This document shows, piece after piece, positions 19,614 to 23,542 of a DNA stretch of 64,000 bases. The notes under the pieces were generated by a model. The model searched no databases, had not been told where the DNA came from, and was given only the letters and a program-made list of their open reading frames with translations. Position 1 is the first letter of the stretch, and each line of letters begins with the position of its first letter. This stretch comes from Tsuneonella suprasediminis. GTDB taxonomy: Bacteria > Pseudomonadota > Alphaproteobacteria > Sphingomonadales > Sphingomonadaceae. The stretch covers positions 124,001 through 188,000 of the forward strand of contig NZ_RAHJ01000022.1 in the NCBI RefSeq assembly GCF_003605755.1. Reading direction: 5' to 3'. The position numbers and the translations under genes were made by a program.

Positions 19614-21272
19614 ATGACTGACCAGCCTAACGCGGCCTTGCCTGCCGCTTCGCCTCTGACCCGCCGCAGTTTTTTTGGAATGAGCGCTTTCTCGCTCGGG
19701 ACGCTCGCGGTTGCACCGCTGGCGGCACACACGGGTGCGCCGTTCGGCAGCGGCTTCACCCACGGAATTGCCAGCGGCGAACCCGCGGCGCGATCTGTCT
19801 TGCTATGGACCCGTTTCGTGGCCTCCCAACCAACAGCGCTACAGTTCGAAGTGAGCGATCGAGAGGATTTTGGAGCTATCGTTGCCGGTGGTTCCGTGGA
19901 GGCATCCCCTGAACACGATTGTTGCGCCAAGGCAGTGGCCACCGGGCTGGAGCCGCGCCGTTGGTATTTCTATCGGTTCGTCGCACCGAACGGAGCGACA
20001 TCCCCCGTTGGGCGAACCCGCACTTTGCCTGAAGGGGCCACAGACCGGTTCCGCATGGCGGTATTTTCCTGCTCCAACATGGGATTTGGCTGGTTCAATG
20101 CATATCGCCATGCCTGCGAACAGGATGCGTTCGACCTTGCCGTACATCTGGGCGATTACTTCTACGAATACGATTACGGCCACTATCCGGCCAAGTCGCA
20201 GGCCGTTGCTGGGCGCGTGCCCGAACCGCTGGGCGAAACGATACATCTGGCCGATTACCGGGCCCGCTATGCCAGCTATCGCCGTGATCCCGATTTGGCC
20301 CGCCTGCACCAGATCTATCCGACAATCACGGTGTGGGACGATCACGAAAGCGCCAACGATTCGTGGAAGGGCGGGGCCGAAAATCATCAACCCGACACCG
20401 AAGGACAATGGAGTGTTCGCAAGGCTGCCGCCATGCGCGCCTATCGTGAATGGATGCCGGTTAGCGATGCCAACTGGGCCAGCTACGACATCGGAGATCT
20501 GGCAACGCTGTTCCGGTTGGAGACCCGGCTGACCGGGCGTGACCAACAGCTCGATCTGGCCGCTGCGCTCAAAGGCACCGATCCGGCGCACATGCAGGCA
20601 GCGCTGGAAGCGTTCAAAACGCGCGACTGGGAAAATCCCGCACGTAATCTGATGGGAGCGGATCAACAGCAGTGGCTGTCATCCGGCTTGAAGCATTCCG
20701 TTGGTGCGGGCCGCAAGTGGCAGGTGCTGGTGCAACAGATTGTGATGGGTTCGCTGTTTCTGCCGCCTGAAGTTGCCGAAGGGTTGTCCGCAGATACGCC
20801 CGATTATGTGCGTCAGCGGCTCGCAGCGGGCGTTCTGGCTTCAAAAGTCGGCATCCCCTTCAATCTCGATTCCTGGGACGGTTATCCCGCCGCGCGGCAA
20901 CGTCTGCTGGATGCAGCGAAAGAGGCCGATGCGAATCTGGTGGTGTTGTCGGGTGACAGTCACAATGCATGGGCGTGCGAACTGGATGGAGCCGGGGTCG
21001 AATTCGCCGGACATTCGGTGACATCCCCTGGTGCCGAGGCATATCTGGGCTGGAAGAAACCGCAGGACACCGCCCGCGAACTGGTCGCCAGCAGCTCTGA
21101 CCTCAAATGGGCCGAAACCGCGAACCGCGGTTATATGGCGGTGGAACTCACCCCCGAACGGGCCAGTAGCGAATGGCGGTTCATGGATACGATCCGCAAG
21201 CGGTCGGATGTCGTGGCCAAAACCCACAGTATGAGCACGACTTACGGTGCGCGCCGTTTTACGGAGACGTAA
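19614..21272 (+). CDS. phoD: PhoD-family alkaline phosphatase, Tat-exported
   Basis: A 552-residue calcium/iron-type phosphodiesterase-phosphomonoesterase. The twin-arginine signal is LTRRSFFGMSAF (16-27) followed by a hydrophobic stretch and AHT cleavage region near 39. Metal-ligand motifs typical of PhoD are present: HLGDYFYEYDYG, VWDDHE, and VVLSGDSHNAWA in the C-terminal half. The enzyme should act in the periplasm to release phosphate from organic esters. No Pho box was recognised upstream. It is separate from thrS, which has its own promoter beginning about 40 bp after this stop. Confidence 0.93.
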   Translation: MTDQPNAALPAASPLTRRSFFGMSAFSLGTLAVAPLAAHTGAPFGSGFTHGIASGEPAARSVLLWTRFVASQPTALQFEVSDREDFGAIVAGGSVEASPEHDCCAKAVATGLEPRRWYFYRFVAPNGATSPVGRTRTLPEGATDRFRMAVFSCSNMGFGWFNAYRHACEQDAFDLAVHLGDYFYEYDYGHYPAKSQAVAGRVPEPLGETIHLADYRARYASYRRDPDLARLHQIYPTITVWDDHESANDSWKGGAENHQPDTEGQWSVRKAAAMRAYREWMPVSDANWASYDIGDLATLFRLETRLTGRDQQLDLAAALKGTDPAHMQAALEAFKTRDWENPARNLMGADQQQWLSSGLKHSVGAGRKWQVLVQQIVMGSLFLPPEVAEGLSADTPDYVRQRLAAGVLASKVGIPFNLDSWDGYPAARQRLLDAAKEADANLVVLSGDSHNAWACELDGAGVEFAGHSVTSPGAEAYLGWKKPQDTARELVASSSDLKWAETANRGYMAVELTPERASSEWRFMDTIRKRSDVVAKTHSMSTTYGARRFTET

Positions 21273-21284
21273 TCGTATGGCTCA

Positions 21285-21300
21285 TGGCAAAAGCTTGCCA
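21285..21300 (+). terminator. Weak hairpin after phoD
   Basis: TGGCAA-AAGC-TTGCCA, a perfect 6-bp stem 12 bp after the phoD stop. No T-run follows, so it is at most a weak terminator or 3'-end stabiliser. Confidence 0.3.
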
Positions 21301-21308
21301 ATCCACAC

Positions 21309-21448
21309 TCGACCGGATCGGATTTCGTGCCTATATAGCGGCGCAATGACGCAAGTGCGTGCCATCACGACTACTACCACTACCCCCGGGATCCGGGGGC
21401 GGGTGGTCGTGCGTTAGGTACGGCTCCTGCCGTCCGGGTTCGGGCGGC
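21309..21448 (+). promoter_or_regulatory. thrS promoter and threonine attenuator region
   Basis: TCGACC (21309-21314) and TATATA (21332-21337) with a 17-bp spacer form a good promoter. Transcription would begin about 21344-21346, almost on the ATG of the leader peptide. The Thr-codon run and following bases pair with downstream sequence: a 7-bp stem CCCCCGG-GAT-CCGGGGG (21383-21399) extended by ACCAC/GTGGT. Further on, ACGGC-TCCT-GCCGT (21420-21433) and GCCGTCCG-GGTT-CGGGCGGC (21429-21448) share bases and cannot form together. This is the logic of an attenuator. There is no T-run after the last hairpin, so Rho or translational control of thrS is more likely than intrinsic termination. Confidence 0.65.
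21346..21417 (+). CDS. Threonine leader peptide of thrS
   Basis: A 23-codon frame beginning [17 protein letters not shown] and ending with TAG. Seven of 23 residues are threonine and six are consecutive (ACG ACT ACT ACC ACT ACC), like the thrL peptide of the E. coli threonine operon but placed ahead of the threonyl-tRNA synthetase gene. A ribosome short of charged tRNA-Thr would stall exactly on the 5' arm of the first hairpin. There is no Shine-Dalgarno, and the promoter puts the transcription start on or 1-2 nt before the ATG, so translation is probably leaderless, as reported for the trpL peptide of Sinorhizobium. The peptide itself need not have a function. Confidence 0.8.
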
Positions 21449-21544
21449 GTGGCGTCACCTCCCGAATTCGCGAATCGTAATCCGACGCCTTCCGGTTTGC
21501 GCCTGCCTGTGTCATGGGCGCGCCATACCAAATGGACGGATACG

Positions 21545-23542
21545 ATGACGGAACTGCTCAAGATCGCTCTCCCAGACGGATCGGTGAAGGAAATGCCGGT
21601 CGGCTCTACGCCTGCCGATGTTGCGGCCTCTATCGGGCCCGGGCTGGCCAAAGCGGCGCTGGCGGCGCGAGTCGACGGCGAACTGCGCGATTTGACGCGC
21701 CCGTTCGATGGCGACGCTCAACTGGCGCTGGTCACCGCGCGGGACGAGGCGGATGCCCTCGAACTGGCGCGCCACGATTACGCGCACGTTCTGGCCGAAG
21801 CGATCCAGTCGCTGTGGCCGGGGACGCAAATCACGTTCGGCCCGGCAACCGATGACGGGTTCTACTATGATGTGAAGGCGCCCGACAGCCGTGATCCGTT
21901 CAGCATGGACGATCTGCCCGCCATTGAAGAAGAAATGCGGCGGATTATCGCAGCTGATAAGCCGCTGCGCCGCGAAGTGTGGAGCCGCGAAAATCTGATC
22001 GAACGGTGGCAGTCCGAAGGCGAAGTGTTCAAGGCCGAATGGGCCAAAGAACTGCCGGAGGGTGAAGATCTGACGGTGTACTGGTCAGGCGACGATTGGC
22101 TCGACATGTGCCGTGGTCCGCACTTGCCGAGCACCGGCAAGCTCGATCCGCAGGCGTTCAAGCTGATGCGCGTGGCGGGGGCATACTGGCGCGGCGATCA
22201 GAACAACGCCCAGCTGACGCGAATCTACGGGACTGGCTGGCTCAACAAGAAACAGCTCAACGAACATCTGCATCGCCTGGAAGAAGCCGCCAAGCGCGAC
22301 CACCGCAAACTCGGCCGCGAGATGGACCTGTTCCATTTGCAGGAAGAGGCGCACGGCAGTGTGTTCTGGCACCCCAAGGGTTTCCGCATCTGGCGCGAAC
22401 TGGAAGCGTATATGCGCCGGGCAATCGACGCGGCAGGCTATCGCGAAGTGAAAACCCCGCAAGTGATGGACGCGCGCCAGTGGGAGCAGTCCGGCCACTG
22501 GGGCAAATATCGCGAAAACATGTTCGTCATCCCCGACGAAGTGCCCAATGTGGAAGACGAAGGGCCGTTGGTGTCGGATGATGCCGCGTGGATGGCGCTG
22601 AAGCCGATGAACTGTCCGGCGCATGTGCTGATTTTCCGGCAGGGCATCAAATCGTATCGCGATCTGCCGATGCGGATTTACGAAAACGGGTGTTGTCACC
22701 GCAACGAACCGCACGGGGCGCTGCATGGTCTGATGCGCGTGCGCCAGTTCACGCAGGACGACGCGCACATCTTCTGCCGCGAAGATCAGATTGTCGATGA
22801 GGTTCGCAAGTTCTGCGAACTGGCCGACCGTATCTATCGCGATTTCGGTTTCACTTATTCGGTCAAGCTCGCGCTTCGGCCTGAGCAGCGGTATGGTTCC
22901 GATGCCGATTGGGACAAAGCCGAAGAGGAACTGCGTCAGGCCGTGGCCGATGCCGGTATGGCAACCGAAGAATACGGATGGGAAGAGCTCCCCGGCGAAG
23001 GGGCGTTCTATGCGCCCAAGCTGGAATGGCACCTGACCGACGCCATCGGTCGCACCTGGCAGGTCGGTACGATCCAGTCGGACCGCGTGCTGCCCGAACG
23101 GCTCGATGCCAGCTATGTCGGGGAAGATGGCGAGAAACATCGCCCGGTCATGCTGCACCGCGCGATCTTCGGTTCGTATGAACGGTTTATCGGCATTCTG
23201 ATCGAACACAATGCAGGCCGCCTGCCGCTGTGGCTGGCACCGACGCAGGCAGTCGTCGCTACGATTGTTTCCGACGCGGATGACTATGCCAACGATGTCG
23301 CCGCGCAACTGACCGCGGCGGGCATTCGTACCGAAACCGATCTGCGTAACGAGAAGATCAACTACAAAGTGCGCGAACATAGCCACGCGAAAGTTCCGCA
23401 CTTGCTGGTCGTCGGCAAGCGTGAGGCGGACGAGGGTACAGTCGCGATCCGCACTCTGGGTGAGCAGCAACAGAAAGTGCTCCCGCTCGCCGAAGCGATT
23501 GCCATGTTGAAGGGCGAGGCGACTCCGCCTGATTTGCGTTGA
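21545..23542 (+). CDS. thrS: Threonine-tRNA ligase
   Basis: A 665-residue class II synthetase. The TGS domain covers about 1-62, the editing (TGS-linked SAD) domain includes [12 protein letters not shown] near 80, and the catalytic core holds the zinc ligand Cys357 in MKPMNCPAH and the motif 2 region [18 protein letters not shown]. The anticodon-binding domain fills the last 100 residues. The start at 21545 gives the standard TGS domain; GGACGGA lies 4 nt upstream. The frame is open further upstream only because it runs through the leader region in another phase. Regulation by threonine availability is likely through the leader peptide at 21346-21417. Confidence 0.97.

Follow-up and report, generated by a model that had tools for sequence, protein, structure and literature searches.

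A threonine-codon leader and a chain of exclusive RNA helices as a probable ribosome-mediated attenuator of thrS in sphingomonads

The DNA upstream of thrS in Tsuneonella suprasediminis raises the question of whether this synthetase gene is controlled through translation of a short threonine-rich frame and, if so, by which RNA structures and by which final step. In the window, i.e., the whole stretch of 64,000 nt that was analysed, the proposed controlled gene thrS (threonine–tRNA ligase; TIGR00418, 642.6 bits) occupies positions 21545-23542, and its leader, promoter and RNA segments all lie with it on the plus strand. A phoD-like gene (NF058638, 245 bits, below the cut-off) ends at 21272, and the gap between the two genes holds a leader peptide frame of 23 codons (21346-21417), within which six consecutive Thr codons (21367-21384) would form the sensor. 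Frame reading and a run scan bear out the claim of an earlier note that such a frame precedes thrS, and the run is the sole one of at least six ACN codons on both strands of the window. A short frame with regulatory codons for the very amino acid that the downstream gene's product handles is what a leader-peptide attenuator would have. Rfam families, including T-box and Thr_leader, gave no match over the window at gathering scores, and nothing convincing, neither T-box nor Thr_leader, appeared at E values up to 10 over 21300-21580, where the only two matches were weak ones to a KDPG-aldolase RNA (E 0.16) and a frameshift element (E 3.9).

The Thr run was compared across 210 thrS upstream regions (30 + 80 + 100 loci), nearly all from sphingomonads (L108-L111 fall outside), some genomes being present under two records and one region (L054) offering only 101 nt of upstream DNA. 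Frames having four or more Thr in eight residues were inspected by eye, and leaders were accepted from among them. Conserved tandem Thr codons in Erythrobacteraceae and their relatives, which had been set beforehand as a refutation test, are present in 94 of the 210 regions (89 of them distinct), with the accepted frames at −119 to −233 before thrS, mostly at −190 to −233; the regions without an accepted leader, 116, are more numerous than those with one. One accepted frame (L121) continues to the thrS start, likely through a one-base gap in segment 2 of the RNA described below. Many of the peptides follow the pattern M(T/A)xxxTTTTTTTPxxRGRxVxx. Among the relatives, the entropy at codon positions 1-2 of Thr codons 3-6 is 0.09–0.39 bit, and that at codon position 3 is 1.20–1.44 bit, with the last codon as the exception (0.37); conservation is lower at Thr codons 1 and 2 than at codons 3-6. 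With positions 1-2 fixed and position 3 drifting, selection seems to act on the peptide and not on the RNA alone, and the frame is thus likely translated.

Transcription is predicted to start at or next to 21346, downstream of a −10-like element (CCTATATA, 21330-21337) that contains a conserved [GC]CTA, its CTA lying about 15 nt upstream of the leader ATG. This motif occurs at −19 to −13 of the leader ATG in 58 of the 89 distinct relatives, compared with 4.8 expected from shuffles, and the best TATAAT-type hexamer ends 6–7 nt upstream of the ATG in 46 of the 89. However, a generic sigma-70 consensus scan (threshold 9 of 12) does not list this promoter, P1, and TATAAT-type scoring of the 89 relatives does not exceed shuffles (mean 6.76 vs. 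6.49), so that the case for P1 rests on position and conservation. The earlier description of a good promoter with its start on the ATG is therefore upheld for the placement of the promoter but not for its match to consensus. Shine–Dalgarno-like 4-mers are found before the leader frame in 6 of the 89 relatives; since they are also uncommon before thrS (17 of 89), their scarcity at the leader says little in favour of a leaderless start. The leader frame is probably leaderless, with the transcription start at the leader AUG.

Within and beyond the frame, the RNA can be divided into neighbouring segments with alternative pairings, i.e., 1:2, 3:4 and 5:6 versus 2:3 and 4:5. Segment 1 (21376-21389), made of Thr codons and CCCCGG, forms the 5′ arm of stem 1:2 in the ribosome-free fold of the window's leader, where the stem that had been predicted to arise from the Thr codons themselves does appear. 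Segment 2 (21393-21410), placed by the duplex test and pair counts, would pair with 1 in the off state or with 3 in the on state; segment 3 (21429-21436), placed by covariation as well as by duplex tests and pair counts, would pair with 2 (on) or 4 (off). Segment 4 (21436-21448) contributes the arm 21441-21448 to the off-state helix with 3 and the arm 21436-21444 to the on-state helix with 5b. Segment 5 comprises 5a (GGCGTC, 21451-21456), whose partner is segment 6 (GACGCC, 21484-21489), the two being placed by duplex tests and pair counts, and 5b (CCCGAATTC, 21461-21469), whose pairing with 4 is also marked by covariation. Segments 7 and 8 (21494-21524), identified by duplex tests, would form a hairpin close to the thrS start region in transcripts from P1. 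Two mutually exclusive hairpins had been noted earlier, and both can be read in the letters; the one at 21429-21448 is conserved, but the one at 21420-21433, a pairing of the linker with segment 3, finds no support, falling outside the 14 best of 55 and the 30 best of 91 segment combinations. The conserved alternatives to 21429-21448 are instead 2:3 and 4:5b (21436-21444 with 21461-21469), and the hairpin set of the earlier note, while right about 21429-21448, overlooked 5a:6, 7:8 and the probable second promoter.

These pairings were examined in an alignment (A1) of 83 of the 89 distinct leaders, which omits near-copies (L022, L028, L114), a leader without segments 3-6 (L036) and two diverged ones (L088, L091). 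In the duplex test, each segment is paired with the partner from its own species and with that from another species, and the resulting p-values ignore relatedness. By duplex energy, the own partner was better in 70 of the 83 sequences for 5a:6, 68 for 3:4, 63 for 4:5b and 58 for 2:3, and it was likewise favoured for 7:8 over all 83 leaders. In a subset of 34 sequences below 70% identity, 4:5b, 3:4, 2:3, 7:8 and 5a:6 were the five best of 55 combinations, with one-sided p-values of 0.00029 to 0.0036. The ungapped version of the test again gave an own-species advantage for 3:4, 4:5b, 5a:6 and 7:8, and none for 2:3 (47 of 83, p 0.45). Pairing of 1:2 exceeds shuffles; this helix hardly varies, which leaves the test uninformative about species-specific pairing in it. 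A 6:7 pairing reached p 0.001 in all sequences and 0.049 in the subset of 34. Another candidate, between the leader start and the linker, looked good in all 83 sequences but was lost in the subset (p 0.18) and was rejected. An all-pairs covariation scan with a tree-based null yielded no single pair at E < 0.05; four nested pairs of 4:5b and one of 3:4 are among its twelve highest, while some of its top scores are misalignments around segment 6, and the scan lends weak support to 4:5b and 3:4. Taken over the relatives, covariation supports 2:3, 3:4, 4:5 and 5:6 but not 1:2.

Twenty-four sequences (of 35 listed, the A2 seed), the window not among them, served to build a covariance model, R1, with the off-state helices. 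An alignment matched with this model (A3) has 92 rows from 93 sources; L192 and L205 gave no match, and L003 contributes two rows, the second being a match on the opposite strand (21.4 bits) that is probably due to chance. The on-state helices, absent from R1 and drawn for the pair counts from a single row (L030), are paired in 93.1% of cells compared with 35.6–61.8% when slid along the alignment, and 63 cells are changed on both sides versus 18.0 after shuffling. The off-state helices, toward which the alignment leans, are paired in 87.3% of cells and show 164 double changes versus 54.4. Compensatory changes, proposed beforehand as the thing to look for in the leader hairpins, are thus found in the helices of both states.

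Constrained folding was used to model the position of the ribosome in 82 leaders (L121 omitted), with a helix counted as formed when it had at least four expected pairs. In the stall model the ribosome is masked at the Thr codons and all bases on its 5′ side are also held unpaired. Under these settings, the stalled ribosome left 2:3 formed in 82% of the leaders, 4:5b in 49% and 3:4 in 23%, and a ribosome at the stop codon left 3:4 in 88% and 2:3 in 5%, so that the stall-dependent exchange of helices postulated earlier is reproduced. In the window's own leader, the stall gave 11.3 pairs for 2:3 and 7.7 for 4:5b, and the stop position gave 8.4 pairs for 3:4. When transcripts were cut near the conserved CTT that follows helix 5:6, 5a:6 was favoured by more than one pair at the stop in 44 of 82 leaders and at the stall in 11; at two other cuts it was higher at the stop in 37 and 35 of 82 and at the stall in 15 and 18. 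The window's own 5a:6 is absent from full-length folds and hardly forms in shortened ones. Covariation and constrained folding agree in pointing to mutually exclusive helices that are chosen by ribosome position, as in an attenuator.

From comparison and folding, we consider it very probable that thrS is controlled here by a ribosome-mediated attenuator that responds to charged tRNA-Thr. Transcription from P1 would begin at the leader AUG. When charged tRNA-Thr is plentiful, the ribosome would reach the leader stop and cover segment 2, allowing 3:4 to form and leaving 5 free for 6; this off state (3:4, 5:6) would keep thrS expression from P1 low. Under a shortage of charged tRNA-Thr, the ribosome would stall on the Thr run and cover segment 1, so that 2:3 and then 4:5b form and 5:6 is disfavoured; this on state (2:3, 4:5b) would give high thrS expression and hence negative feedback on ThrRS supply. 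Threonine starvation is accordingly predicted to raise thrS expression, a direction that follows from the order of the segments.

The output step is less clear-cut. The predicted absence of a T-run after the hairpins is confirmed in the window, where no U-tract follows 5:6, and a terminator scan over 20900-21800 found no intrinsic terminator in the leader, its one terminator-like site (21060-21079) being on the opposite strand; the leader thus lacks the G+C-rich hairpin with U-tract of a classical transcription attenuator. A C-rich, G-poor stretch made of the 5:6 loop and segment 6 (21456-21492) is a possible site of Rho loading. From the end of 5a to just past CTT (about 39 nt), C exceeds G in 83 of 83 relatives, at fractions of 0.41 and 0.16, respectively, and this stretch is shorter than a typical Rho-loading site. 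C also exceeds G in the leader frame of 82 of the 83 (G 0.29), which means that the C excess alone is not specific. The C-rich loop would stay exposed in the off state, whereas in the on state 4:5b would cover part of it, and this suggests a Rho-dependent output, most likely Rho termination, as the last step, ahead of translational control. The complete scheme, in which a leaderless peptide sets at least six and perhaps eight exclusive segments, a Rho-loading loop is exposed or hidden, and a second promoter keeps thrS on, is put forward tentatively, with somewhat less than even confidence.

The same Thr sensor might instead have a translational output, with the off-state hairpins hindering 30S binding or the on state opening the start site. 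Two genomes with a gene inserted before thrS (G102 and G244) speak for it, as segment 6 there abuts, by eye, the ribosome site of the inserted gene with no CTT tract between, and segment 8, when defined as the stretch that forms the strongest duplex with 7, has its 3′ end a median of 20 nt (interquartile 18–22) upstream of the thrS ATG. However, that spacing may reflect a promoter, and duplex tests of the segments against the thrS Shine–Dalgarno and start region gave no clear species-specific pairing; pairing of the start region is also the same in both folding states (0.51 vs. 0.525). Sequestration of the start site was rejected on these two grounds, and a translational output of any kind appears unlikely, though not negligible.

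A third possibility for the output is a weak intrinsic terminator composed of 5:6 and a short pyrimidine stretch (CTTCC, or CTCTTTTC in some Sphingomonas). The CTT after 5:6 is strongly conserved and some relatives (L091, L103, L106) have TTTT; yet just two T follow 5:6 in the window, whose 5:6 loop is about 27 nt, the two genomes with an inserted gene have no such tract, and CTT also occurs in leader-free relatives, as expected of a promoter element. The same genome does have a hairpin with six T before ilvB, and these points together make a weak terminator at thrS rather improbable. This ilvB structure (L231, G000:C18), a strong G+C hairpin with six T at about −100 to −65 from the match start, indicates that terminator-like sites with T-runs exist in the window's genome. 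In the same genome, a candidate Leu-codon leader, MMNWLALQLIRLTRP with its stop, lies before leuA (L234, G000:C18, frame at −192 to −144 from the match start); the apparent hairpin after it ends in GGGCTTCAA and has no T-run, and together they may form another attenuator that lacks a U-tract.

The preferred Rho-dependent scheme includes a second promoter, P2, which probably lies directly before thrS (CTTCCG, 17 nt, TCATGG; 21489-21517) and probably gives basal expression. It was recognised as a conserved block at near-fixed distance before the gene, with the consensus CTTCCGG..GCGCGC....TTGTGCCATGGCGC, the interquartile distance from its CTT to the thrS ATG being 56–60 nt over 83 leaders. In the set of 111 distinct regions without an accepted leader, 12 exceed the 99th percentile of shuffles (7.6) on the block profile, and 11 of these score at least 13.8; one region without a leader that carries the block (L119) has phoD ending shortly upstream. 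By eye, −35/−10-like sequences occur at a similar place in other relatives that have no leader. With hexamer-like blocks at 17-nt spacing and similar sequences in relatives lacking the leader, a promoter is the simplest reading.

The covariation of 7:8 indicates that the P2 block may also fold as the 7:8 hairpin in longer transcripts, which raises a different reading in which 7:8 is a ThrRS-binding operator, as in Escherichia coli thrS, and the leader peptide is secondary. The species-specific pairing of 7:8, its conserved loop with TGTG and the presence of the block in some relatives without the leader would all agree with an operator. Nevertheless, UGU of the anticodon-like loop is missing in some relatives (L007, L123, L043, L044), the block has the spacing of promoter hexamers, and the conserved Thr run and relay would be left unexplained; we regard an operator as very unlikely. 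That the Thr run and hairpins are an artefact of chance or codon composition without function is hardly credible, for although the G+C-rich segments pair easily, conservation holds for the Thr residues but not for most third codon positions, the places with the switch adjoin thrS, and compensatory changes occur in on- and off-state helices alike.

The proposed Thr-sensing attenuator can be followed through the order with R1, which scores 108.7 bits on the window even though it was built without it. In a search of 247 Sphingomonadales genomes, R1 matches 82 places; these are spread over 80 genomes, every one of which belongs to the window's family. Of these places, 72 lie 14–47 nt upstream of thrS on the same strand, two lie 538 and 543 nt before thrS with an extra gene between, and three (G216, G183, G229) are upstream of a thrS-like frame. 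For the remaining five (G125, the second places of G172 and G145, G246 and G138; E 0.0017–0.0087), proximity to thrS was not established, and they were treated as chance matches. Three additional leaders (L220-L222) were obtained through R1. A search of 386 genomes of the class, in which few candidates were scored per genome under strict filters, so that distant forms may be missed, returned five matches, four from the window's family and one (G563, E 3.2e-4) that was rejected because it has no four-Thr run in any frame and no thrS was recognised at the locus. A quick ThrRS tree of 107 rows requires 11 changes of the leader label, compared with 34.0 after shuffling; the leader is present in 34 of the 37 rows of the window's clade, with scattered carriers elsewhere. 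Both a single origin with many losses and transfer fit this history. One related thrS (L217, IMGVR_UViG_2879167038_000004), 75% identical to the window's, is on a contig filed as viral, which may be host flank.

Several natural variants of the locus were seen. Two further leaders are situated farther upstream of thrS (L016 in G102 and L219 in G244), and in both a frame of about 165 aa (MRYYIDTEFNGTG...) is inserted between attenuator and thrS and may be co-regulated. The inserted frame of L016 has no Pfam match, so the name "exonuclease-like" (3′–5′ exonuclease) rests on reading of the sequence by eye. In L036 (1382-1500), the leader and a 7:8-like hairpin are kept, again by eye, and segments 3-6 are missing; as an even number of segments is gone, the logic of the chain would be kept.

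Several known systems resemble parts of this arrangement. The his operon leader of enterobacteria is a six-segment ribosome-mediated attenuator and shares with the thrS leader a peptide with a run of regulatory codons and a chain of helices 1:2, 3:4, 5:6 versus 2:3, 4:5; in contrast, the sphingomonad leader precedes a synthetase gene, its frame probably lacks a 5′ UTR, and its last helix is not followed by a U-tract. In the thrABC leader peptide (thrL, Rfam Thr_leader), Thr and Ile codons sense charged tRNA. Thr codons in a short leader frame thus sense charged tRNA-Thr there as is proposed here, whereas the gene is different, the regulatory codons here are Thr only, and no Rfam leader family matches. 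A leader-peptide attenuator also stands before the synthetase gene pheST of E. coli. Feedback on thrS itself is achieved in E. coli by ThrRS binding to an operator and in Gram-positive bacteria by a T-box that binds uncharged tRNA. These share the feedback on thrS but use binding of ThrRS or uncharged tRNA, in contrast to the translated leader proposed here, which has no T-box match.

Leader-peptide attenuators have been predicted for trpS and leuS in Streptomyces (PMC1262725) and for hisS and hisZ (hisS paralogues) in bacilli (PMC2965389). These resemble the thrS leader, as the pheST leader does, in that a synthetase gene is controlled via codons for its own amino acid; they differ in that other synthetases and mostly other phyla are concerned and that the predictions have intrinsic terminators. 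A published leaderless attenuator, trpL of Sinorhizobium meliloti, has an RNA that begins at the ATG of the small frame (PMC7298713, PMC10117765). It is, like the probable case here, an alphaproteobacterial leaderless leader peptide, but its codons are for Trp, it precedes trpE(G), and it has a transcription terminator. Mycobacterium Cys-codon leaders (PMC1262725) also have no obvious terminators, and the authors weakly propose Rho; they likewise combine a leader peptide with the lack of an intrinsic terminator, but no conserved terminator hairpins were found in them, whereas the thrS leader has a conserved hairpin chain. No leader peptide for thrS was seen among the literature matches listed, and Lopatovskaya et al. 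2010 (doi 10.1134/S0026893310010164) and Vitreschak et al. 2004 would be two likely places for any earlier prediction.

Comparison of the relatives' DNA thus strongly supports the sensor and the relay of a thrS attenuator in sphingomonads. R1 permits annotation of the switch in many sphingomonad genomes, and the natural variants, i.e., those with no leader, with an inserted gene or without segments 3-6, make the output step directly testable. If the attenuator is real, alphaproteobacteria would use Thr codons to control a synthetase gene, and the sphingomonad leader would join the E. coli operator and the T-box of Gram-positive bacteria as a further way of matching ThrRS supply to need.
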